A DNA stretch of 43,377 nt from Gemmatimonadales bacterium (lineage in GTDB: Bacteria > Gemmatimonadota > Gemmatimonadetes > Longimicrobiales > Gaopeijiaceae): contig REEG01000290.1 of the NCBI GenBank assembly GCA_007695195.1, positions 1-43,377 on the forward strand. Reading direction: 5' to 3'. The notes beneath the pieces are model-generated. The model worked only from the letters and a program-made list of their open reading frames with translations. It was not told where the DNA came from and did not search any database. Below, one piece after another: positions 19,933 to 32,790 of the stretch. Each line of letters begins with the position of its first letter. Positions within the stretch are counted from its first letter, which is position 1. Both the position numbers and the translations under genes were made by a program.

Positions 19933-21228
19933 ATGATCGGTTCGAAACAGGCTACCCTGGTGGAGCGGGTCCGCCTCAGCGGAGTCGGGGTCCATTCCGG
20001 CACCGAAGCGACCCTCACCCTGGTCCCTGCGCCCGAGTGCACCGGGATCGTGTTCCAGCGCACGGATCTGGAGGGCTCGCCCCGGATTCCCGCCAATCTG
20101 GACCACGTTTCGGACACGGAGCTGGGGACGACGCTGGCCCTCCCCGATGGATCGGCCAAGGTCATGACGGTGGAGCATCTCATGGCCGCTCTGGCCGCCG
20201 CCGGTATCTCCAATGTGGTGGTGGAGATCGATGGGCCGGAGCCGCCAATCCTGGATGGCAGCTTCGGCCCGTACCTGGCTGCCATCCAGGCGGCGGGGGT
20301 TGAAGTACAGGAGGCCGACCTGCCCGTGATTCGCATCCGGCGCCCCGTCACCGCTTCGGGATCCCAGGGTTCATCCTATGTGGCCACTTCGGCCTCGGAC
20401 TACAGGATTTCGGCCACCATCGACTTCTCCCACTCCACCATCGGCCGCCAGTATGGAAGCTTCGAGGTTGGCAGGGACGTCTTCCGGGACCAACTCGCTC
20501 CAGCCCGGACCTTCGGCTTCCGTGCCCAGGCCGAGGCGCTTCGGGAGCGGGGCCTGGCCCAGGGGAGTTCTCTGGAGAATACGGTGGTCCTGGACGACGA
20601 CGGGGTCATGAACGACGGGCTCCGCTTCCCGGACGAGTTCCTGCGCCATAAAGTGGGAGATATGGTGGGCGATCTTGCCCTTCTGGGGGCAAGGCTCGAG
20701 GGACACATCGTGGCCGATCGTCCGAGTCATGAGGGGAACATCGCCCTGGCCCGCGCCATCGTGGAGGATCAACGGCGCTCCCCCGAGGGAGAGGCCATCG
20801 TGGACACCAAGCAGATCCTCCAGTATCTCCCTCACCGCTACCCAATGCTCCTGGTGGACCGGATCACCCACTTCGAGTCGGGGAAGCGGATCGTCGGGAT
20901 CAAGAACGTCACGGTGAACGAGCCCTTCTTCCAGGGACACTACCCCGGTCACCCCATCATGCCCGGGGTGCTCATCATCGAGGCCATGGCGCAGGTGGGC
21001 GGGCTCCTTCTCATGGACACCATCGAGAACCCTGACCAGAAGGTGGTCTACTTCATGTCCCTGGACCGGGTGAAGTGGCGTCGGCCGGTCACGCCGGGAG
21101 ATCAGCTCGTCTTCCAACTTGAACTCCTCCAGTTCCGGAGGAGTGTCTGCAAGATGAGGGGCGAGGGCTTCGTGGATGGGAAGCTGGTGGCGGAGGCGGA
21201 ACTCATGGCGCGGGTGATGGACCGATGA
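19933..21228 (+). CDS. lpxC/fabZ: Bifunctional LpxC-FabZ (UDP-3-O-acyl-GlcNAc deacetylase / 3-hydroxyacyl-ACP dehydratase)
   Basis: A natural fusion of the committed lipid A deacetylase with a fatty-acid dehydratase. Residues 1-285 are LpxC: zinc ligands H82 (in EHLMAAL), H239 and D243 (HKVGDMVGD), and the catalytic-site SHEGN histidine. Residues 290-431 are FabZ: LPHRYPMLLVDRI, then the active-site segment NEPFFQGHYPGHPIMPG with the catalytic His, and the Glu in IIEAMAQ. Length (431) equals the two domains joined by a short linker. Both enzymes compete for 3-hydroxyacyl-ACP-derived flux, so fusion may balance lipid A against fatty-acid synthesis. Such fusions are known in Bacteroidota and a few other phyla. 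The stop overlaps lpxA (ATGA). Confidence 0.95.
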   Translation: MIGSKQATLVERVRLSGVGVHSGTEATLTLVPAPECTGIVFQRTDLEGSPRIPANLDHVSDTELGTTLALPDGSAKVMTVEHLMAALAAAGISNVVVEIDGPEPPILDGSFGPYLAAIQAAGVEVQEADLPVIRIRRPVTASGSQGSSYVATSASDYRISATIDFSHSTIGRQYGSFEVGRDVFRDQLAPARTFGFRAQAEALRERGLAQGSSLENTVVLDDDGVMNDGLRFPDEFLRHKVGDMVGDLALLGARLEGHIVADRPSHEGNIALARAIVEDQRRSPEGEAIVDTKQILQYLPHRYPMLLVDRITHFESGKRIVGIKNVTVNEPFFQGHYPGHPIMPGVLIIEAMAQVGGLLLMDTIENPDQKVVYFMSLDRVKWRRPVTPGDQLVFQLELLQFRRSVCKMRGEGFVDGKLVAEAELMARVMDR

Positions 21229-22037
21229 CCGAACCCCTGCTGGATCCCCAACCCGTCACCGGCGTCCGGATCCACCCCTCGTCCATCGTGGACCCCTCGG
21301 CGGAGCTGGACGTGGGCGTGACCATCGGCCCCTGGTCCCTCATCGGCCCCGGCGTTCGGATCGGGGCGGGATGCACCATCGGCCCCAGTGTGCTCATCGA
21401 GCGCAACACCTCGCTGGGGCGGGAGTGCGAGATCCACAAGGGAGCGGTTCTGGGGACGGATCCCCAGGATCTCAAGTTCCGGGGCGAGGACACCCGACTC
21501 GAGGTGGGCGACCGGACCGTGATCCGGGAGTATGCCACCCTGAACCGGGGGACGTCGGCTGCGGGGCGAACCGTCGTGGGAGACGACTGCCTCCTCATGG
21601 CCTACACCCATGTGGCCCACGACTGCATCCTGGGAAACCATGTCATCCTCTCCAACGCGGTGAACATGGCGGGGCATGTGGAGCTTGAAGACTGGGTCAT
21701 CGTGGGAGGCATTACACCCATCCATCAGTTCGTTCGGGTGGGAACCCACGCCTTCGTGGGCGGAGGCTCCCGGATCTCCCAGGACGTACCGCCCTTCTGT
21801 CGTGCCGCCGGAAGTCCTGCCAAGCTCTACGGACTGAATTCGGTGGGGCTCGAGCGCCGTGGGTTCTCCAGGGAGACCCGGGCGTCCCTGAAACGCCTCT
21901 ACCGCATCCTCTTCCAGTCCGGTCTGAACGTGTCCCAGGGCATTGCCCGGGCCAGGGAAGAGCTGGAGCCTCTGCCGGAGGTTCTCCGGTTCCTGGAGTT
22001 CGTTGAATCATCGGAACGGGGGATCACCATCGGATGA
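21225..22037 (+). CDS. lpxA: UDP-GlcNAc acyltransferase LpxA
   Basis: First lipid A step: transfers 3-hydroxyacyl from ACP to the 3-position of UDP-GlcNAc. The 270-residue product is a hexapeptide-repeat beta-helix (to about 190) followed by a helical C-terminus. The catalytic histidine in AYTHVAHDC is H132, equivalent to E. coli H125, and the family signatures GTDPQDLKF and IREYATLNRGT are present. Acyl length and acceptor preference cannot be read by eye. If the adjacent Gfo/Idh gene makes a 3-keto or 3-amino sugar, the acceptor could differ from plain UDP-GlcNAc. It overlaps the genes on both sides by four bases. Confidence 0.95.
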   Translation: MTEPLLDPQPVTGVRIHPSSIVDPSAELDVGVTIGPWSLIGPGVRIGAGCTIGPSVLIERNTSLGRECEIHKGAVLGTDPQDLKFRGEDTRLEVGDRTVIREYATLNRGTSAAGRTVVGDDCLLMAYTHVAHDCILGNHVILSNAVNMAGHVELEDWVIVGGITPIHQFVRVGTHAFVGGGSRISQDVPPFCRAAGSPAKLYGLNSVGLERRGFSRETRASLKRLYRILFQSGLNVSQGIARAREELEPLPEVLRFLEFVESSERGITIG

Positions 22038-23104
22038 CCATCACCAGCGAAGCGCTTCGTATCGGCGTGGCCGGAGTGGGAAGTCTCGGCTTCCACCATA
22101 CCCGGATCGCCCGGGACCTCCCGGGAGTCCGGATGATGGGGTTCCATGAGCCTCGTCCGGAGCGGACCCGGGAAGTTGAGGAGCAGTTGGGCGTCCCCGG
22201 GTTCGCTGCTCTGGGCGACCTTTTGGACCAGGTGGACGCCCTTATCATTTCCACCCCCACCACCACCCACCGCGACGTGGCGGTTGCAGCCCTGGAACGC
22301 GGCATCCACGTCTTCATCGAGAAGCCCATCGCCCCCTCGCTGGACGAGGCCGACGAGATCCTGGAGGCGGCCGAGCGCGGAGGTGCCCTGGTGCAGGTGG
22401 GGCATGTGGAGCGGTTCAATACGGCGGTGGTGGCGGCGCGCCCCTATCTGGACCGGCCGGTCTTCATCGAATCCCATCGCCTGGCCCCGTTCACCGTGCG
22501 GGGGACGGACGTGGCCGTGGTCCTGGATCTCATGATCCACGATGTGGACCTCGTGGGGAGTCTGGTGGGCGCCCCGGTGAGTGAGATCCACGCCACGGGC
22601 GTCCCGGTTCTCACCCCGTCGGTGGACATCGCCAACGCCCGGATCCAGTATGAGACGGGGGCGGTAGCCAACCTTACCGCCAGTCGGGTCTCGGCGGAGC
22701 GGATGCGCAAGCTCCGCATCTTCCAACGGTCCGGCTACCTGAGCCTCGACCTGGCTGCGGGGACCGGCGAATTCCTCCGCTTGCGAGCCGACCTGCCGGC
22801 GCTGGCACCTCCCGCCGCGGCAGCCGGGGGTGAGTTCGGCTCCGAAGCTGCCCACGCCCGGAGCGGTGTCACCGGCACCGATGCTCCCCTGGCCCCGGAC
22901 CTCTGGTCCCTGGTGGAGCGGATCCCCCTCCACGCCCCGGAAGAGGAACCGCTCCGCCGGGAGCAGGAGAGCTTCGTCCACGCCATCTCCCGGGGAGTCA
23001 CGCCGGAAGTCACGGGCCGCGAAGGTCGGACGGCCCTGGAAGTCGCCCTTGCCATTGAATCCCGGATACTGAGTCATGTCGCTGATTCGCGTCCGAAATC
23101 GTAG
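22034..23104 (+). CDS. Gfo/Idh/MocA-family dehydrogenase in the lipid A cluster (GnnA-like)
   Basis: A 356-residue NAD(P)-dependent oxidoreductase. The Rossmann motif GVAGVGSLGFHH is near residue 11, the EKP lysine is K97 and the catalytic-loop IHD has H169 and D170. The C-terminal half includes an Ala/Gly-rich insertion (about 255-285). It overlaps lpxA by four bases and precedes lpxB. In Acidithiobacillus, gnnA (UDP-GlcNAc 3-dehydrogenase, same family) sits between lpxA and lpxB together with the aminotransferase gnnB. Here no aminotransferase is present, so a 3-amino lipid A cannot be concluded. Another sugar-nucleotide substrate is possible. Confidence 0.8.
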   Translation: MTITSEALRIGVAGVGSLGFHHTRIARDLPGVRMMGFHEPRPERTREVEEQLGVPGFAALGDLLDQVDALIISTPTTTHRDVAVAALERGIHVFIEKPIAPSLDEADEILEAAERGGALVQVGHVERFNTAVVAARPYLDRPVFIESHRLAPFTVRGTDVAVVLDLMIHDVDLVGSLVGAPVSEIHATGVPVLTPSVDIANARIQYETGAVANLTASRVSAERMRKLRIFQRSGYLSLDLAAGTGEFLRLRADLPALAPPAAAAGGEFGSEAAHARSGVTGTDAPLAPDLWSLVERIPLHAPEEEPLRREQESFVHAISRGVTPEVTGREGRTALEVALAIESRILSHVADSRPKS

Positions 23105-23117
23105 AAGGAAGGAAGGT

Positions 23118-23210
23118 GTGGACATCCGGAAGGGGAAATCCCCTCGGATGCTCATCTTCCTCCTGATCCTCGTGGGGTTTGCCATCTGGTACCTCAACAC
23201 CCAGTTCTGA
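23118..23210 (+). CDS. 30-residue single-pass membrane peptide
   Basis: A GTG at 23118, preceded by a strong purine run (AAGGAAGGAAGG), opens a 30-codon frame ending TGA at 23208-23210. The peptide has a basic start (MDIRKGKSPR), one hydrophobic helix (LIFLLILVGFAIWYL) and a short NTQF tail. It fits exactly between the Gfo/Idh gene and the lpxB ribosome-binding site (GGGAGG 23211-23216). An internal ATG at 23148 would leave almost only the helix. I do not recognise it. Placement suggests a small membrane partner or regulator of lipid A enzymes, which is inference. Confidence 0.55.
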   Translation: MDIRKGKSPRMLIFLLILVGFAIWYLNTQF

Positions 23211-23221
23211 GGGAGGCGCCT

Positions 23222-24391
23222 GTGGGAAGTGGCCCGGTCATCCTCCTCCTGGCCGGGGAACCCTCCGGCGACCTCCACGGAGCCCGGGTCGCCCGGGCGC
23301 TCCGGGAGCGCTGGCCCGAGGCCCGACTTCTGGGGCTGGGAGGGGAGCGGATGGAGGCGGAGGGAGTCGAACTCCTGGCCGGCCTCGAGGATCTGGCGGT
23401 CATGGGATTCGTCGAGGTGGCTGCCCGCCTCCCCTTCTTCTGGAGGCTGGAGCGTCGGGTGCGGCGCCTTCTGGATGAGGGTCACATCGACCTGGTGCTC
23501 CCCATCGACTATCCTGGCTTCAACCTGCGAATCACCGCAGCCGCCCACGACCGGGGGATCCCGGTCCTCTTCTTCATCGCCCCACAGGTCTGGGCGTGGA
23601 AGGCGCACCGGGCGGCCCGCCTGGCCCGAACCGCCGATCGCATCGCCGTGATCCTCCCCTTCGAAGAGGAGATCTTCCTGCGGGAAGGGGGGAAGGCCGT
23701 CTTCGTCGGGCACCCTCTCCTGGATCGACCCGACCATGTGGAGGACCGCGAGGCATTCTGCCGGAGGTGGGGCTTCGACCCGGATCGGCCCATCCTGGCC
23801 CTCTTCCCGGGTTCCCGGGCCCAGGAACTCTCGAGGCTCCTGGCTCCCTTCACCGGCGCGGCAAGGCTCCTTCGTGCTGAGCGCCCGGAACTCCAGTTGG
23901 GGGTGGCCCGGGCCCAGGGGGCCCGATTCCCACAGGAGGCTACGGAGGGATGTACGGTGGTGGATGACGGGCGCGCCCTCCTGCGCCACGCCCGGGCTGC
24001 GCTGGTGAAGTCCGGCACCTCCACCCTGGAAGCGGCGCTGGAGGGCGTCCCCTTCGTGGTGGCGTACCGGACCCACCCTCTGACCTTCCGGATCGCCAAG
24101 CGGGTGGTGCGGGTGGACCATGTGGCGTTGGCGAATCTGGTGGCGGGGCACCGGGCGGTGCCGGAGCTCCTGCAGGACGAGGTGACGCCGGAGCGGCTGG
24201 CCCGAGAGGTCGCGCCCCTGCTGGATGATCCGGAGCGACGGGAGCGGATGCGCCGGGAGCTGGCCGGCATCCGGAACGCCCTGGGCGAGCCGGGGGCCGC
24301 CGGTCGGGTGGCCGAACTGGCGGCGGAGATCCTCCACGAGCGCCAGGCTACCGGAACCGGAGCCGGGGCCGGCCGGCCGGGAGCATCATGA
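23222..24391 (+). CDS. lpxB: Lipid-A-disaccharide synthase LpxB
   Basis: Joins UDP-2,3-diacyl-GlcN to lipid X, forming the tetra-substituted disaccharide at the inner face of the inner membrane. The 389-residue product shows the GT19 signatures AGEPSGDLHGA (about 11-21), DYPGFNLR, the FFIAPQVWAWK segment, FPGSRAQE and KSGTSTLEAAL in the C-terminal nucleotide-binding half. The GTG start has GGGAGG five bases upstream. The hydrolase that makes lipid X (LpxH, LpxI or LpxG) is not in the window. The stop overlaps the acyltransferase gene (ATGA). Confidence 0.95.
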   Translation: MGSGPVILLLAGEPSGDLHGARVARALRERWPEARLLGLGGERMEAEGVELLAGLEDLAVMGFVEVAARLPFFWRLERRVRRLLDEGHIDLVLPIDYPGFNLRITAAAHDRGIPVLFFIAPQVWAWKAHRAARLARTADRIAVILPFEEEIFLREGGKAVFVGHPLLDRPDHVEDREAFCRRWGFDPDRPILALFPGSRAQELSRLLAPFTGAARLLRAERPELQLGVARAQGARFPQEATEGCTVVDDGRALLRHARAALVKSGTSTLEAALEGVPFVVAYRTHPLTFRIAKRVVRVDHVALANLVAGHRAVPELLQDEVTPERLAREVAPLLDDPERRERMRRELAGIRNALGEPGAAGRVAELAAEILHERQATGTGAGAGRPGAS

Positions 24392-25062
24392 ACCGCGACG
24401 AGCTGAAGGTTCGGGCCGTGGAGGTCCTGGGATCGGGGGTGCTGACCGGCCTGGGAGCCACCTTGCGGTACACCGTCTCCGAGACCCATCACTATGCTGG
24501 GTTCCGGGAGGCGGGCCGTCCGGTCATCTTCATCTTCTGGCACTCCCGTCTTCTCCCTCTCGTCCACCTGCATCGGGGGCAGGGGGTGGTGGCCCTGGTG
24601 AGTCACCACCGGGACGGCGAGTACATCGCCCGGGTGATCCGGAGACGCGGCTTCGAGGCGGCCCGCGGTTCGTCGACCCGCGGGGGCAGTGAGGCGCTTC
24701 GTGACCTGGTCCGCTGGGCGCGGAAGGGGCGTGACATCGGCATCACCCCCGACGGCCCCAAGGGGCCTGCCCGCCGGCTCAAGTTGGGTGCCGTGACCCT
24801 GGGCCGGATCACGGGTCTTCCACTGGTGCCCGCCGCCGCAGCGGCGAGCCGGGCCTGGCGGGCCCGGTCGTGGGACCGGTTCGTGGTGCCGGCCCCCTTT
24901 GCCCGGATCCACGTTCGCTACGCCGCTCCCATCACCATCCCCCGGGATGCCTCCGAGGAGGAGCTGGAATCCCTTCGCCTCCGGGCCGAGTCCGAGTTGA
25001 ACCGGATCACGGATCAGGTGGATGCCGAGGCCGGCGCCGCCGAAGGGGAGGCCCGCTCATGA
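24388..25062 (+). CDS. DUF374-type lysophospholipid acyltransferase-fold protein
   Basis: A 224-residue member of the LPLAT superfamily, DUF374 branch. WHSRLLPL (about 51-58) supplies the catalytic-type His with a variant of the HX4D box; GSSTRGG and TPDGPKGP are the other family blocks. It lies between lpxB and lpxK with ATGA overlaps on both sides, where a late lipid A acyltransferase is expected but no LpxL or LpxM homologue is seen. It may add a secondary acyl chain or another acyl group to lipid A; the substrate is not proven. No strong membrane helix is seen, so peripheral attachment is likely. Confidence 0.8.
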   Translation: MNRDELKVRAVEVLGSGVLTGLGATLRYTVSETHHYAGFREAGRPVIFIFWHSRLLPLVHLHRGQGVVALVSHHRDGEYIARVIRRRGFEAARGSSTRGGSEALRDLVRWARKGRDIGITPDGPKGPARRLKLGAVTLGRITGLPLVPAAAAASRAWRARSWDRFVVPAPFARIHVRYAAPITIPRDASEEELESLRLRAESELNRITDQVDAEAGAAEGEARS

Positions 25063-26108
25063 GGAGGCTTGTGGAGGCGCCGGTGCGGCGGTGGTGGCAC
25101 GGGGACGGGAGGGGAGGCGCGGTACTGGGGCCGTTGACCGCCCCCTTTTCCCTGGCCTTCGGCATCGGCGTCCGGGCTCGGAACTTCTTCTATGATCGTG
25201 GACTCTTCCGGACCGAGCTTCCCCCGGTTGCGGTGATCTCGGTGGGGAACCTCTCCGTGGGTGGGACCGGGAAGACCCCCGTTTCCCGGTGGCTCCTTGA
25301 GCGACTCCGGGCCCGGGGACGGCGACCGGCGCTGGTGAGTCGGGGCTACGGCGAAGACGAGATCCTCCTCCACCGGAGGTGGAACCCGGACCTTCCGGTG
25401 GTGACGGCGGCGCGCCGGATCGAGGCCGTCCAGGAGGCCGTGGCCAAGGGGGCCGATGTCTGCGTGGTGGACGACGGCTTCCAGCACCGGGCGCTGGGCC
25501 GGGACCTGGATCTGGTCCTTCTCTCGGTGGAGGACCCCCTACCGGTCCGCCTTCTTCCCCGGGGACCCTACCGGGAGCCCCTCCGGAGCCTTCGGCGCGC
25601 CGGACTCGTCCTGGTGACCTTCCACGGCCGGGATCGGGAGGGGGAAGCCCTGGAGGTCATCCGCCGGGTGGCCCGGCGTCGCGGGTGCCCCCGAAGTATG
25701 CCCTTTCCCTTCGTCCCGGGCCCGTGGCAGGATCTGGCGGGGCAGCCGGCCTCCCCTCCCGCCGGGAACCGGCCTCTCCTGGTGAGTTCGGTGGCCCGCC
25801 CGGAAGCGGTGGCGGCCATGGCCCGGCGGGCCGGGGTGACTCCGTCGGGAGCCCTGGCCTTTCCCGACCATCATGGGTACCGTCCGGCGGACCTGGCCGA
25901 GATCCGAACCGCCGCCGGCTCCGGCTCCGTGGTCACCACCGAGAAGGATGCGGTGAAGTTGGCCCCCCATGCCGGCGAGCTTCCCCCCACCCGGGTCCTC
26001 ACACTGGTGCCGGGACCGGACCGGGGTGTTGAGCGGATCATTGACGACGTCCTGGACGAGGCGCTGCGGCGGGGAGACGCGCGCCGGAAGGGACGGAGGT
26101 CCACATGA
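25059..26108 (+). CDS. lpxK: Tetraacyldisaccharide 4'-kinase LpxK
   Basis: Phosphorylates the 4' position of the lipid A disaccharide. ATG 25059 overlaps the preceding stop (ATGA) and gives 349 residues; the frame is open 63 codons further upstream but that part lies inside the acyltransferase gene. The P-loop GNLSVGGTGKTP is at 63-74, DDGFQHRAL around 140 and TTEKDAVKL near 294, all family signatures. An N-terminal hydrophobic segment (about 24-38) probably anchors it to the inner membrane. A KdtA/WaaA gene, often adjacent, is absent here. Confidence 0.95.
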   Translation: MRRLVEAPVRRWWHGDGRGGAVLGPLTAPFSLAFGIGVRARNFFYDRGLFRTELPPVAVISVGNLSVGGTGKTPVSRWLLERLRARGRRPALVSRGYGEDEILLHRRWNPDLPVVTAARRIEAVQEAVAKGADVCVVDDGFQHRALGRDLDLVLLSVEDPLPVRLLPRGPYREPLRSLRRAGLVLVTFHGRDREGEALEVIRRVARRRGCPRSMPFPFVPGPWQDLAGQPASPPAGNRPLLVSSVARPEAVAAMARRAGVTPSGALAFPDHHGYRPADLAEIRTAAGSGSVVTTEKDAVKLAPHAGELPPTRVLTLVPGPDRGVERIIDDVLDEALRRGDARRKGRRST

Positions 26109-26581
26109 AGATCCAGGTGGTGGCGGTGGGCGGGATCCGGGGACCCCTGGAGCCGGCGGTGGAGGAGTACCGTATCCGAGCGAGCCGGTACTGGAGTCTG
26201 GAGGTGGTGGAGGTGGACGCCGGAGCACCTGGTCGAAAGGTGGATCCGGACCGGGTGCGGGCCGCCGAAGCCGAACGACTCCGGGGGCGCCTCTCCGCCG
26301 ACGCGGACTGGTGGGTGCTTACCCGGGAAGGGAAGGCCCTCAGTTCCCCGCAGTTGGCCCGTCTCCTGGACGATCGGGTGCTCCTCGGGGGGCGGGAGGT
26401 CGCCTTCATCCTCGGGGGAGCCTTCGGGGTGGACGAGGCGTTGAAGAGGGAGGCGGCCCGGCGCATTTCCCTGGGCTCGGTGACCCTTCCCCACGAAATG
26501 GCCCGCCTGGTGGTGCTTGAGCAGTTGTACCGGGCAGGGACCATCCTCCGGAACGAACCCTATCACAAGGGGGCCCTGTGA
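26105..26581 (+). CDS. rlmH: 23S rRNA pseudouridine-1915 N3-methyltransferase RlmH
   Basis: SPOUT-class methyltransferase that methylates pseudouridine 1915 in helix 69 of 23S rRNA. The 158-residue product has the typical length, the trefoil-knot SAM motif AFILGGAFGVDE and the C-terminal LPHEMARLVVLEQLYRA followed by PYHK, which completes the active site. It overlaps lpxK (ATGA) and the next gene (GTGA). Confidence 0.95.
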   Translation: MKIQVVAVGGIRGPLEPAVEEYRIRASRYWSLEVVEVDAGAPGRKVDPDRVRAAEAERLRGRLSADADWWVLTREGKALSSPQLARLLDDRVLLGGREVAFILGGAFGVDEALKREAARRISLGSVTLPHEMARLVVLEQLYRAGTILRNEPYHKGAL

Positions 26582-27339
26582 ACCGCGATGACTGGTACCG
26601 CCACTGGTTCGGGGCGGACTATCTCGCCCTCTATCCCCACCGGGATCGTGACGAGGCCCGGCAGGCGGTGGAACTCCTGCTGTCGTGCATCCAGTTGCCG
26701 GCGGACGGGCGGATTCTGGATCTGGCCTGTGGAGCGGGCCGCCACCTGGAGGCACTGGCGGCCCACGGTGTCCGCGGGGTTGGACTCGATCTGTCGTCCC
26801 ACCTCCTGGCCCGAGCGCGGGAGGGGGACGGGAGCCCATGTCTCGTCCGGGCCGACATGCGGCGTATCCCCTTTTCAAACATGGCCTTCCATGCTGTGAC
26901 TTCATTCTTCACATCATTTGGATACTTTGCCCATGAACGGGACAACCGGGCGGTGCTGGACGAGGTCCGACGTGTGCTCCGACCGGGAGGCATCTTCCTC
27001 CTGGACTTCCTCAACGCCGACCGGGTCGTGGCAACGCTTCGCCCCAGGGATGAGCAGGTGATCCGGGGCCGCCGGGTGGTACAGGAGCGCAGGCTCCTGG
27101 AGGGCGAGCGGGTCGTTGAGAAGCGGATCCTGATCCGAACCGAGGCGGAGGGGGAGGGGGTCGGTCCTGCGCAGAGCTACACCGAGCGCGTCCGGCTGTA
27201 CCGTGCCCACGAGCTTGCCACCCTCCTGGAGGCGGCGGGCTACCGGGTGGTTCAGCGATACGGCGATTATGCCGGAGGTGCGCTCGGCCCCGACTCACCC
27301 CGAGTGATCCTCCTGGCGAGCCTGAGCCCGGATAGTTGA
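26578..27339 (+). CDS. Class I SAM-dependent methyltransferase, candidate bacillithiol N-methyltransferase
   Basis: A 253-residue Rossmann-fold methyltransferase. The SAM motif ILDLACGAGRH is at 46-56, GVGLDLS follows, and an MRRIPFSNMAFHAVTSFFTSF segment with PGGIFLLDFLN completes the core. The C-terminal half is a substrate lid. The opening (WYRHWFGADYLALY, then HRDRDEA) resembles a family I associate with NmbA of Chlorobaculum tepidum, which N-methylates bacillithiol; that link is from memory, not alignment. The next gene is bshC, strengthening the idea. The GTG start overlaps the rlmH stop (GTGA). The alternative is a small-molecule methyltransferase of unknown substrate. Confidence 0.75.
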   Translation: MNRDDWYRHWFGADYLALYPHRDRDEARQAVELLLSCIQLPADGRILDLACGAGRHLEALAAHGVRGVGLDLSSHLLARAREGDGSPCLVRADMRRIPFSNMAFHAVTSFFTSFGYFAHERDNRAVLDEVRRVLRPGGIFLLDFLNADRVVATLRPRDEQVIRGRRVVQERRLLEGERVVEKRILIRTEAEGEGVGPAQSYTERVRLYRAHELATLLEAAGYRVVQRYGDYAGGALGPDSPRVILLASLSPDS

Positions 27340-27382
27340 TGGTCACCTCCGTCCCCCCCACCGTCCCTGCCCGGGAACGCCC

Positions 27383-28996
27383 ATGAAGATCCAACCGGTC
27401 CCCCTCCGCGGGAGTGCCCTGGTGAACGACTGGCTTGCCGGGCACCCCACCGCCGAGGCGTTCTTTCCCGGTGCACCGGGCGACCCGCACCGGGTGCGGA
27501 CGGTGGCCGAGGAGGTAGCGGCCCGCTTCGACCGGGAGGCTCGCGTGAGAGCCGCCTCACTCCTCACCGGGGGAGGGGAATCCGGTGGAGAGCGTCTCCA
27601 CCGCTTCATTGAAGAGGGTGGGTTCGTGGTCACCACCGGCCAGCAGCCGGCGCTCCTGGGCGGGCCCCTCTATGTCCTCTTCAAGGCCTTCACGGCGGTG
27701 GCGTTGGCCGACCGGTTGGAGGAGCTACTGGGCCGACCGGTGCTTCCGGTGTTCTGGGTGGGCTCCGACGACCACGACTGGGACGAGGCTCGCCGTACCT
27801 GGATCCTGGATCCGGAGAACGAGCCCGTCGAACTGAACCTGCCACCTCGCGACGGTCCCTCCCCGGCGATCCACCGGATCCCCCTGGAGGGAAGTGCCGC
27901 CATGGCCGGCGTGCTGGAGGCCCTGGCGACGGCCCTGCCCGAGTCGGATTTCGCACCCCATTGGCGCGCCATGATCCAGGAATGCTGGGGACGGCCCGGA
28001 GTCACCATGGCCGATGGGTTCGCCGCCCAGTTGGAGCGGCTCACCGCCGACGCCGGGCTTTTCCTCACCCGGTCCCATGACCCGGAGCTCCGGTCCGCTG
28101 CCCGACCCCTGCTCCGCGCTGAACTCCGGTCCGCCGCCGCTTCGGAGGCCGAACTCCGTGCGCGTGCCCAGGCGCTGGAAGCGGCCGGATACGCGGTGCA
28201 GGTTCCCATTGCCGACGGCGCCACCAACGTCTTCCTGGACGGACCCGTGAGCCGGGACCGCATTCTCTGGCAAGCCGATGGAGCCTTGAACCTCAGGGGC
28301 CACCAGGCACGCCTATCCGAGGGTGACCTTTCCGGAAACGGGGACGCCGCCCTGACCCCGAACGTGCTTCTACGGCCGGTGGTGGAGGCCCATGTATTTC
28401 CGACGCTGGCCTATGTGGCCGGTCCCGGCGAGGCGGCCTACCTGGCCCAGAATGAACCCCTCTTCCGGCGCCATGGGGTGACCAGGCCCCTGGTCCACCC
28501 CCGATTCTCCGGGGTGGTCATGGAGCGGAAGGTGGAGAAGGTCATTCGCAAGTACGACCTGGAGTTGGCGGCGTTGGCCCTCCCCCATCACGAACTGGCC
28601 GGGCGCCTGGCACGGGACGATCTGCCCGAGGGCATCCGCCGGGAGCTGGGCCGGTTCCGGGGTGCCCTGGCCCGGCACACCACCGAACTGGGTCGGGAAG
28701 TGACGGAGCTGGATCCCACCCTCCGGGATTCGGTGGAGCAACTCCGGACCCAGGGCTTCGCCGGCCTGGCCGATGTGGAGAAGAAGGTGGTGCAGGCCCT
28801 CAAGCGCGAGAACGAGATCATGCTGGCCCAGATCGCCAAGGCCCAACTCCACCTCTTCCCCGAAGGAGTGCCCCAGGAGCGACGTATGAATGTATGGTAC
28901 TTCCTCTTCCGCTACGGCGACGCCTTCCTGGCCGAGATCCGGCGCCGCGCGGAAGCCTCCCTCGAGCCGTTGCAGTCCGGAACTCCCGTCGGGTAG
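27383..28996 (+). CDS. bshC: Putative cysteine ligase BshC (bacillithiol synthesis)
   Basis: BshC adds cysteine to glucosaminyl-malate, the last step of bacillithiol synthesis. The 537-residue length fits the family. Recognisable blocks are VVTTGQQPALLGGPLYVLFK (about 82-101), VFWVGSDDHDWDE with the conserved acidic/His cluster, and AYVAGPGEAAYLAQ in the synthetase-like core; a coiled coil occupies about residues 385-490 (HELAGRLARDDLPEG onward). BshA and BshB, which make the precursor, are not in the window. It is preceded by 43 non-coding bases and the candidate methyltransferase. Confidence 0.92.
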   Translation: MKIQPVPLRGSALVNDWLAGHPTAEAFFPGAPGDPHRVRTVAEEVAARFDREARVRAASLLTGGGESGGERLHRFIEEGGFVVTTGQQPALLGGPLYVLFKAFTAVALADRLEELLGRPVLPVFWVGSDDHDWDEARRTWILDPENEPVELNLPPRDGPSPAIHRIPLEGSAAMAGVLEALATALPESDFAPHWRAMIQECWGRPGVTMADGFAAQLERLTADAGLFLTRSHDPELRSAARPLLRAELRSAAASEAELRARAQALEAAGYAVQVPIADGATNVFLDGPVSRDRILWQADGALNLRGHQARLSEGDLSGNGDAALTPNVLLRPVVEAHVFPTLAYVAGPGEAAYLAQNEPLFRRHGVTRPLVHPRFSGVVMERKVEKVIRKYDLELAALALPHHELAGRLARDDLPEGIRRELGRFRGALARHTTELGREVTELDPTLRDSVEQLRTQGFAGLADVEKKVVQALKRENEIMLAQIAKAQLHLFPEGVPQERRMNVWYFLFRYGDAFLAEIRRRAEASLEPLQSGTPVG

Positions 28997-29004
28997 GTTC
29001 ACAT

Positions 29005-29292
29005 ATGACCTGGCTCGTCCTCATCGTCCTGCTCGTCGTGATCCCGGAGATCCTCTCCACCGTCCTGGACTCCCGTCTGGGCCGGGCGGCGGCGGCACGT
29101 CTGGAGTCCGGGGTGGAGCGGGCGCCGGACCAGGCCACCGCCGATCGGATCCGCTATCTGGAGGGAGAGGTGGACCGTCTCTCGGACGAGGTGACGCGGC
29201 TGTCGGAGGAGAGCGACTTCCTCCACAAGCTCCTGGCCGATCGCCCCACCCGCGACGCTCCCCGGATCCCTCCCGGTGACCCGAAAGCCTGA
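29005..29292 (+). CDS. Small membrane protein with coiled-coil tail (PspB-like architecture)
   Basis: A 95-residue protein starting at ATG 29005, eight bases after the bshC stop. Residues 2-20 are hydrophobic (TWLVLIVLLVVIPEILSTV). A heptad-rich helix follows at about 48-80 (RIRYLEGEVDRLSDEVTRL, then FLHKLLADR), and the end is Pro-rich. One membrane helix plus a short cytoplasmic coiled coil resembles PspB of the phage-shock response, but I cannot claim homology. The coding region overlaps murJ by 17 bases in another frame, so the two are probably co-translated. Confidence 0.6.
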   Translation: MTWLVLIVLLVVIPEILSTVLDSRLGRAAAARLESGVERAPDQATADRIRYLEGEVDRLSDEVTRLSEESDFLHKLLADRPTRDAPRIPPGDPKA

Positions 29293-30952
29293 GCCGCCCC
29301 CGGCCGGTGGCGAAGGTGCCGCCCCCGAGGCGACGCCTCCCGCCCCGGGGCCCGAGGCTCTGGATCCGGGGACGTCTTCCCGGGACGGGGCGCGAAGCCG
29401 GGCCTCGGCCCGGGTAACGGCGGGAATCCTCGCCAGCCGACTGAGTGGCCTGGTCCGGGAGCGGATCTTCGCCTACTTCTTCGGCGCCTCACCCACCGCC
29501 GATGCCTGGAAGGCGGCGCTGCGGCTCCCCAACGTCCTGCAGAACCTGCTGGGTGAGGGCACCCTCTCCGCCTCCTTCATCCCCATCTACGCCGAACTGC
29601 TGGAGGAAGGCCGGGACCAGGAGGCCGCCCGTTTCGCCGGAGCCGTCCTGGGGCTCCTCACCGTCACGGCAGGACTTCTGGCGGTGGTCGGGATCCTGGT
29701 GGCGCCCTGGCTGGTGGGATTCTTCTTCTACGGGTTCGATCCCGACCGCCAGGCCCTCACCGTTGAACTGGTCCGGATCCTCTTCCCCATGACGGCGATC
29801 CTGGTGATCTCGGCGTGGGCGCTGGGGATCCTGAACAGTCATCGGCGCTTCTTCCTCTCCTACGTGGCGCCGGTGGCGTGGAACGCCGCCATGATCACGG
29901 CCCTGGCGGTGGGGGGGCTCGTTCTGGGGTGGTCCGGGTCCGAGCTGGTTCGGCTCCTGGCGTGGGGAGCGCTGGTTGGGGGTGCCCTGCAACTCCTGGT
30001 GCAGCTTCCCCTGACGCTCCGGCTCCTGGGCGAGTTCCGGCCCTCCCTGTCCACCCAGGTGCACGGGGTCCGGGAGGCGATCCGGAACCTGATTCCGGTG
30101 GTGGCCGCCCGGGGGGCGGTGAATCTGGGGGGGTGGTTGGACTACGCCCTGGCCGCCTTCCTCACCGCCGGGGCCGTGGCTACCCTCTCCTACGCCCAGA
30201 CCCTCTACATCCTCCCCATCTCCCTCTTCGGGATGGCGGTGGCGGCCTCGGAGCTCCCCGAGATCTCCCGGAACCGGGGCGCCGACCGGGCGCGGCTGGC
30301 TCGGGAGGTGGCCGGCGGCGCCGAACGTGTAGCCTTCTTCCTGGTCCCCTCCACGGTGGCGTACCTCCTCCTGGGTGACGTCATCGTGTCGGCCCTCTAC
30401 GAGACCGGGGCCTTCGGTGCCGACGAGGTCCGGGTCACCTGGCTGATCCTTGCCGCCTACGCTGTGGGGATGGGGGCCTCGGCCACCTCGCGCCTCCTGT
30501 CGTCGGCCTTCTACGCCCTCCGGGACACCCGGACGCCGGCCCGGGTGGCCTACCTGCGCGTGGGTCTGGCCCTGGCTCTGGGCGCGGCGCTCATGCTCCC
30601 CATGGACCGGTTCCGGGTGGGTGCGCTGGGTCTCGGCGCCGTGGGGCTGGCCGCCGGGTCGGCAGTTGCGGCGTGGGTCGAACTCGGCCTCCTCAGGAGG
30701 CGGCTCCGGGAACAAGCTGGCCCCGAACTGCGATTGGCCGGGCCGGTGCTCCCGCGGCTCCTGGCGGCGGCTCTGCCGGCGGCGGGGGCGGGGCTCGGCG
30801 TCCACCTTCTGCTCCCACCCCTGCACCCCTGGCTTGTGGCCGCTGGAACGCTCATCCCCTTCGGAGTGATATATCTGGCGCTCACCCGCCTCCTGGGGGT
30901 GTCCGGTCCGTTGGACGCCCTCCTCTCCCGCCGCTCGGCGCCATTGCCATGA
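29276..30952 (+). CDS. murJ: Lipid II flippase MurJ
   Basis: Flips lipid II across the inner membrane for peptidoglycan synthesis. The 558-residue protein opens with about 45 Pro/Ala-rich residues, then ASRLSGLVRERIFAYFFG and ADAWKAALRLPN, the MurJ/MviN hallmark with the conserved Arg. About 14 hydrophobic helices follow. The GTG at 29276 lies within the previous gene; there is no ATG before the conserved core, so the disordered N-terminus may be partly an annotation artefact. The stop overlaps uvrC (ATGA). Confidence 0.93.
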   Translation: MTRKPEPPPAGGEGAAPEATPPAPGPEALDPGTSSRDGARSRASARVTAGILASRLSGLVRERIFAYFFGASPTADAWKAALRLPNVLQNLLGEGTLSASFIPIYAELLEEGRDQEAARFAGAVLGLLTVTAGLLAVVGILVAPWLVGFFFYGFDPDRQALTVELVRILFPMTAILVISAWALGILNSHRRFFLSYVAPVAWNAAMITALAVGGLVLGWSGSELVRLLAWGALVGGALQLLVQLPLTLRLLGEFRPSLSTQVHGVREAIRNLIPVVAARGAVNLGGWLDYALAAFLTAGAVATLSYAQTLYILPISLFGMAVAASELPEISRNRGADRARLAREVAGGAERVAFFLVPSTVAYLLLGDVIVSALYETGAFGADEVRVTWLILAAYAVGMGASATSRLLSSAFYALRDTRTPARVAYLRVGLALALGAALMLPMDRFRVGALGLGAVGLAAGSAVAAWVELGLLRRRLREQAGPELRLAGPVLPRLLAAALPAAGAGLGVHLLLPPLHPWLVAAGTLIPFGVIYLALTRLLGVSGPLDALLSRRSAPLP

Positions 30953-32790
30953 TCGACGCCCGAATCCTGGAGAATCTTCCCACCGACCCGGGGGTCTACC
31001 TCTTCCGGGACGGCGAGGGGGAGATCCTGTACATCGGGAAGGCCAAGTCGCTCCGGGCTCGGGTGCGGAGCTATTTCCGCTCCGGCGACGGCCAGGGGAT
31101 CCGGACCCGGGAGTTGGTCCGCCGGGCTCAGGATGTGGAGACCATCGTGGTGGGGTCCGAGGCCGAGGCGCTCCTCCTGGAGTCGAACCTCATCAAGGAG
31201 CACCAGCCCCGTTTCAACGTCCGGCTCCGGGACGACAAGCGGTATCCGTACATCAAGGTGACGGTGCAGGAGCCCTTCCCCCGCGTCTTCGTCACCCGAC
31301 GGACCCGCAACGACGGCTCCCGCTACTTCGGACCCTTCACCTCGGTGGGCCCCATGCGCCAGGCGCTGGAGGTGGTGAAGAAGCTCTACACCGTCCGGTC
31401 GTGCCGCTACGACCTTCCCCGGGAGGCGCCGCCCCGCCCCTGTCTGGACTACCACATCGACCGGTGCAAGGCCCCGTGCGTGGGGTACCAGAGCGAGGCC
31501 GAGTACGGCGCCATGATTGACGAGATCCTCCGGATCCTCTCCGGCGAGACCCGGGAGCTGAAGGCCGAGGTGAAGGCCCGCATGGAGGCGGCCTCCGCCG
31601 AGCTTCGCTTTGAAGAAGCGGCCCGCCACCGCGACGTCCTCCGGGGGCTCGAGTCGCTGGAGCGGGATCAGCGGGTCGAGAGCGTCCAGGGGGAGAACCA
31701 GGACGTTCTGGGGCTGGCTCGGGATGGGGAGCTGGGCGCCGCCGTGGTCCTCCGGATCCGGCGGGGGACCCTCCTGGGCCGGGAGAGCCGCCGCTTCAGC
31801 GGCCTCGGTGACGAGTCCGATGAGGAGCTTCTCGGCGCCTTCGCCTCCCAGGTGTACCTGGCCGGCGGAACGGAAGCCGTGCGCGAACTGCCCACAGAGG
31901 TCCTCCTCCCCTCGGGGTTCCCCGACCGGGCGGTGCTGGCCGAGCTCCTCACCGAAGAGGCGGGACGGAAGGTGTCGCTCCAGGTGCCGCTCCGGGGGCA
32001 GAAGCGCCGGCTGGTGGAGCTGGCCGCCGCCAACGCCCGCCACCTCCTGGAAGACCGGATCACGGCCCAGGAAGAGTCGGCGGATCGGGCCGACGCCGTC
32101 CTCTACGAACTCCAGGACCGTCTGGGCCTCAAGGTGGTCCCGCGACTCATGGCCTGCTTCGACATCTCCCACACCCAGGGCACCGAGGTGGTGGCCTCGG
32201 CGGTGGTCTTCCAGAATGGCGAGAAGAAGCGCGGCCTCTACCGACGGATGCGGATCCGCGGCGACTGGGGAAATGACGACTTCCGCTCCATGGCCGAAGC
32301 GGTGGGGCGGTGGCTCCGTCGCCGACTGGACGAGGGCGAGCCCCTCCCCGAACTTCTGGTGGTGGACGGGGGGAAGGGGCAGCTCTCCGCCGTCCTCCCG
32401 GTGCTGGATGAGGTGGGCGCACCGGAGGTGACGGTGGTGGCGCTGGCCAAGAAGGAGGAAGAGGTCTTCCTTCCCGGCTCGCCCGAGCCCATCCGCATGA
32501 GCCGTCGGGATCCGGCCCTTCGCCTCCTGCAGCGGATCCGCAACGAAGCCCACCGCTTCGCCGTGGAGTACAACCGGAAGCTCCGGAGTCGCCGCACCAT
32601 CCGGAGCGCGCTGGGAGACATCCCCGGCATCGGCGCTTCCCGGCAGCGGGCGCTCCTGACCCGCTTCGGCTCGGTACGGGGTGTCCAGCAGGCCGATGCC
32701 GACGAGATCAGCCGGGTCCCTGGATTCTCCCGGGTCCTGGCCGAGCGCGTCCTGGCGCACCTGGGTGAGGCGGAGCCTGACGGGAGCTGA
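30949..32790 (+). CDS. uvrC: Excinuclease ABC subunit UvrC
   Basis: Makes both incisions around DNA lesions in nucleotide excision repair. ATG 30949 overlaps the murJ stop and gives 613 residues; the frame is open 92 codons upstream but only as murJ shadow. The GIY-YIG nuclease domain is at about 12-90 (PGVYLFRDGEG, then LYIGKAKSLRARV), a UVR motif near 205-240, the RNase H-like 5'-incision domain around 390-530 (ACFDISHTQGTEVVAS, VVDGGKGQL), and helix-hairpin-helix repeats at the end (DIPGIGASRQRALLTRFG). All domains are complete. Confidence 0.95.
   Translation: MIDARILENLPTDPGVYLFRDGEGEILYIGKAKSLRARVRSYFRSGDGQGIRTRELVRRAQDVETIVVGSEAEALLLESNLIKEHQPRFNVRLRDDKRYPYIKVTVQEPFPRVFVTRRTRNDGSRYFGPFTSVGPMRQALEVVKKLYTVRSCRYDLPREAPPRPCLDYHIDRCKAPCVGYQSEAEYGAMIDEILRILSGETRELKAEVKARMEAASAELRFEEAARHRDVLRGLESLERDQRVESVQGENQDVLGLARDGELGAAVVLRIRRGTLLGRESRRFSGLGDESDEELLGAFASQVYLAGGTEAVRELPTEVLLPSGFPDRAVLAELLTEEAGRKVSLQVPLRGQKRRLVELAAANARHLLEDRITAQEESADRADAVLYELQDRLGLKVVPRLMACFDISHTQGTEVVASAVVFQNGEKKRGLYRRMRIRGDWGNDDFRSMAEAVGRWLRRRLDEGEPLPELLVVDGGKGQLSAVLPVLDEVGAPEVTVVALAKKEEEVFLPGSPEPIRMSRRDPALRLLQRIRNEAHRFAVEYNRKLRSRRTIRSALGDIPGIGASRQRALLTRFGSVRGVQQADADEISRVPGFSRVLAERVLAHLGEAEPDGS

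Follow-up and report, generated by a model that had tools for sequence, protein, structure and literature searches.

The methyltransferase NmbA has been described from Chlorobaculum tepidum (CtNmbA, encoded by CT1040) and Paenibacillus polymyxa (PpNmbA), both of which methylate bacillithiol (BSH) in vitro, and neither BSSB, glycine nor GSH is methylated in NmbA assays (PMC12719100). Deletion of CT1040 leads to the loss of N-methyl-bacillithiol (N-Me-BSH) in vivo, with BSH being retained (PMC6282198). NmbA has already been reported as frequent in Gemmatimonadota, in a survey that admitted homologues with an E value of up to 1e-20, an identity above 25%, a coverage above 80% and a similar length (PMC12719100). 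Three features that are presented here, i.e. the adjacency of nmbA and bshC, a set of signature residues and a look-alike paralogue in a mutase operon, were not found in the two primary NmbA papers.

The DNA under analysis (the window, 43,377 nucleotides) represents one whole contig of a 3.9 Mb Gemmatimonadales genome with a completeness of 96%, the closest relatives of which, among the survey genomes and named records, are Gemmatimonadota. The predicted nmbA gene lies within a larger gene cluster (Table 1), in which its start codon overlaps the stop codon of rlmH by 4 nt and a gap of 43 nt separates it from bshC. The first-pass annotation had placed a class I SAM methyltransferase directly 5' of bshC, and this arrangement was borne out by the short gap, by the Pfam and TIGR03998 matches and by the genome survey described below. 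The N-terminus of the nmbA product reads NRDDWYRHWFGADYLALY. The DUF374-like acyltransferase of the cluster was named from its sequence, with no NCBIfam match, while gltX is the next gene after uvrC. Additionally, a 95-aa ORF (29005-29292) is located between bshC and murJ; its position is kept in many relatives, and an NCBIfam search with this ORF returned no match.

Table 1. Coordinates of the nmbA-bshC locus in the window and of the NmbA-like paralogue loci
Feature	Position	Strand	Description	Evidence
nmbA	26578..27339	+	SAM-dependent methyltransferase of class I (253 aa, GTG start); predicted to N-methylate bacillithiol	9RI2 match, signature residues, tree, AU test
bshC	27383..28996	+	bacillithiol biosynthesis cysteine-adding enzyme, 537 aa	TIGR03998, Pfam BshC N- and C-terminal domains
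rlmH	26105..26581	+	5' flank of the nmbA slot	RlmH family matches of at most 126 bits, under sub-model cut-offs
lpxA, Gfo/Idh oxidoreductase, lpxB, DUF374-like acyltransferase, lpxK	21225..26108	+		NCBIfam; same order in relatives
small ORF, murJ, uvrC	29005..32790	+	3' flank	NCBIfam for murJ and uvrC; same order in relatives
Paralogue loci	L113-L125, L130-L132, e.g. L121:5043-5774		NmbA-like methyltransferase without the NmbA signature	

The window methyltransferase scored above the Pfam cut-offs for Methyltransf_25, Methyltransf_11 and Methyltransf_23. A search against all solved structures identified CtNmbA (9RI2) as the best PDB match (E 6e-39), with residues 2-249 of the window protein aligning to residues 12-261 of 9RI2, i.e. 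over the full length; the runner-up (E 2e-13) matched part of the SAM domain only. BLAST comparison with CtNmbA gave 36% identity over 94% of the latter (E 3e-39 for an effective database of 1e9 letters), values that lie within the published NmbA limits. The NmbA-like N-terminus that had been remarked upon in the first-pass annotation is reflected in seven residues (W6, W10, F11, Y15, Y19, H21 and R22) common to the window protein and CtNmbA, and the alignment with CT1040 proposed therein as a check is favourable, being full-length and including the signature residues; the protein also groups with NmbA against the paralogue. A search of NCBIfam with the window methyltransferase encountered no NmbA model, and all methyltransferase matches were sub-threshold. 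A structure model of the protein (pLDDT 88.8) retrieved 9RI2 as the second Foldseek match (TM 0.66-0.67), just below 3D2L; the 9RI2 crystal has a narrow cap domain, and according to its authors the cap strands of NmbA are misplaced by AlphaFold. At the level of such models, the fold search cannot tell NmbA from other methyltransferases with a four-strand cap.

The remainder of the BSH route was located in the same genome. With the NCBIfam equivalog TIGR03998, which has a cut-off of 265.8 bits, BshC of the window scored 347.6 bits. Outside the window, the genome encodes bshA, at 540 bits against a threshold of 274, and bshB1, at 207 bits against one of 182.5; with all three above cut-off, the BSH route is complete. 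Models for glutathione synthetase and MshC gave nothing over cut-off against this genome. The bshB1 gene is followed by an apparent cysteine desulfurase gene and then mnmA (L221:4135-7640; G000:C19), both named by eye only, forming a sulfur-handling neighbourhood. The first-pass annotation had suggested a candidate N-methyl-bacillithiol pathway, a proposal that is supported by the presence of bshA and bshB1 and by the affinity of the methyltransferase to NmbA, although it is not new, as NmbA of Gemmatimonadota had been published (PMC12719100).

The window protein was used to search 200 Gemmatimonadota genomes. Strong matches (>150 bits) were obtained in 83 of these, and weaker matches (approximately 94-125 bits) in at least 58 genomes among the matches listed, at least ten of which carry both groups among the same matches. 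Of the 70 strong-group genomes that could be scored, 69 had the gene directly 5' of bshC and in the same orientation, the single exception being a genome in which nmbA and bshC are both situated at contig ends, and four further strong-group genomes outside this 70-genome table displayed the same adjacency by sequence. Conversely, none of the 35 weak-group genes scored adjoins bshC. Chance adjacency of nmbA and bshC was ruled out by the linkage conserved in 69/70 genomes. The co-occurrence of the two genes at genome level is uninformative, since a bshC match was present in 195/200 genomes (over the TIGR03998 cut-off in 160). BshC proteins of several Gemmatimonadota families (e.g. G130, G174, G025 and G033) score near or under this cut-off, and cut-off-based surveys would thus undercount BSH producers.

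In most loci examined, the two methylmalonyl-CoA mutase genes (large subunit and B12-binding small subunit) enclose the gene of the weaker, unlinked group; meaB lies upstream of it and a gene for an acyl-CoA carboxylase subunit downstream (names from NCBIfam). As this paralogue is approximately 36% identical to the window protein, is found in so many of the surveyed genomes and in some of them accompanies the linked gene, it might be argued that the window gene represents a distinct NmbA-like group acting on some other substrate, and that the unlinked homologue is the real NmbA. We consider this very unlikely. The window genome itself contains no second NmbA homologue, save for a weak partial match (E 6e-4), and the unlinked proteins resemble CtNmbA less closely (mostly 26-32% identity, with a few of the loosest members at 33-34%) than do the linked ones (33-40%). 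Furthermore, 11 near-invariant residues were identified in NmbA and the bshC-linked clade, namely W10, H21, R22, A27, D143, N146, K182, E203, V205, G229 and R242 (in the same order W20, H32, R33, A38, D161, N164, K198, E214, V216, G240 and R254 of CtNmbA), and all 11 are present in the window protein. Six of them (W10, H21, R22, K182, E203 and V205) are wholly missing from the unlinked paralogue and the others are reduced. The least strict signature residue is H21, found in 79% of the Bacteroidota rows, which here and in the tree are mostly NmbA homologues by sequence, few having been individually assayed.

In a tree of 96 proteins, the linked group, CtNmbA and the Bacteroidota and Holophagae homologues were separated from the unlinked group and other methyltransferases by a branch of moderate support (91/85), while branching inside the NmbA side was poorly resolved. 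An AU test rejected a single clade of linked and unlinked proteins (p 0.0002, at a cost of 109 log units), this constraint having been picked after the first tree had been viewed. The absence of the unlinked gene from the vicinity of bshC and its home in the mutase operon likewise speak against its being the real NmbA. The reversed assignment, with the linked gene as paralogue and the unlinked gene as true NmbA, was accordingly ruled out by CtNmbA identity, linkage, signature and the AU test. The published NmbA criterion would admit many of the paralogue proteins, more so with a seed from within the phylum, and published NmbA counts for Gemmatimonadota may, on these comparisons, be inflated by the paralogue. 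Members of the Holophagae, including Geothrix (L075, L077, L082, L085; G201, G501-G508), possess an NmbA homologue with the signature; their BshC-like ORF is short and very divergent (at best approximately 38-47 bits, the cut-off being 266) and does not adjoin the NmbA homologue.

The gene neighbourhoods were also inspected for the presence or absence of nmbA. In relatives of the same family or order that are devoid of nmbA, the remaining cluster is intact and bshC follows straight after rlmH, or, in one such genus, straight after lpxK. Mapped onto a BshC tree, nmbA switches between present and absent at this position at least four times, two of these switches being forced by well-supported branches. 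In Gemmatimonadota nmbA therefore occupies a fixed slot flanked by rlmH and bshC, at which it has been gained or lost repeatedly, and the survey of bshC neighbourhoods that the first-pass annotation had recommended agrees with its reading in both linkage and presence/absence at the slot. A record labelled Gammaproteobacteria (JAHEKL010000053.1; L063) contains the lpx-rlmH-nmbA-bshC cluster of Gemmatimonadota, with identities of 49-73%, and is probably a MAG contig that was mislabelled or mis-binned. Since the flanking lpx, rlmH, murJ and uvrC genes are unrelated to thiols, and a gene order conserved inside a single phylum can reflect shared descent rather than function, nmbA could be seen as a chance neighbour in a housekeeping and lipid A cluster with no role in bacillithiol metabolism. 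This is extremely unlikely given the full-length homology to NmbA and the signature, and because nmbA-bshC pairs recur outside the lpx cluster, namely in records of Planctomycetota and Fibrobacteria where lpx flanks are missing. Among the Bacteroidota stretches examined with the window BshC as query, no bshC was found beside nmbA, bar one approximately 2 kb away on the opposite strand.

Taken together, the window methyltransferase is very probably an NmbA orthologue that would methylate the amine of BSH to yield N-Me-BSH, with the caveat that SAM methyltransferases at approximately 36% identity can change substrate. Regarding the chemistry, the co-transcription and the actual cellular thiol, we infer that BshA, BshB1 and BshC would produce BSH, and that NmbA would then use SAM to place a single methyl group on the cysteine nitrogen of reduced BSH; the gene arrangement suggests that nmbA and bshC are probably contained in one transcription unit. 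Judged from its gene content, this Gemmatimonadota bacterium probably makes N-Me-BSH as a protective thiol. It is conceivable, albeit improbable, that BSH is methylated to a different product, by a second N-methylation or at another position: CtNmbA is able to methylate a by-product at a secondary amine (PMC12719100), and such product detail is unreadable from sequence. However, the residues common with CtNmbA are conserved across the linked clade, and the physiological product of the assayed NmbA homologues is the mono-N-methyl thiol (PMC12719100). If BSH methylation did differ, the outcome would be a low-molecular-weight thiol that has not yet been described.

The present case thus confirms a published prediction at phylum level, to which the neighbourhood, residue-level and presence/absence evidence and the mutase-operon paralogue are additions; the signature separates NmbA from a look-alike that published criteria partly admit. 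Moreover, since nmbA varies in its presence at one slot whereas bshC is retained, matched relatives are available for asking what purpose the N-methylation of BSH serves. The window protein resembles CtNmbA (CT1040, 9RI2) as a full-length class I SAM methyltransferase with motif I (LDxACGAGRH), a YF aromatic pair and the signature residues. The NmbA proteins of Paenibacillus polymyxa and Bacteroidota belong to the same family according to the literature (PMC12719100), those of Bacteroidota also by tree and signature. The mutase-operon paralogue is alike in methyltransferase superfamily, degree of identity and length, and differs in its six missing signature residues and in its location between mutase subunits, away from bshC. 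Finally, C. tepidum likewise combines nmbA with bshA, bshB and bshC in one genome; in contrast to that organism, where the locus tags of nmbA (CT1040) and bshC (CT1558) put the two genes far apart, nmbA of the window lies directly 5' of bshC and overlaps rlmH.
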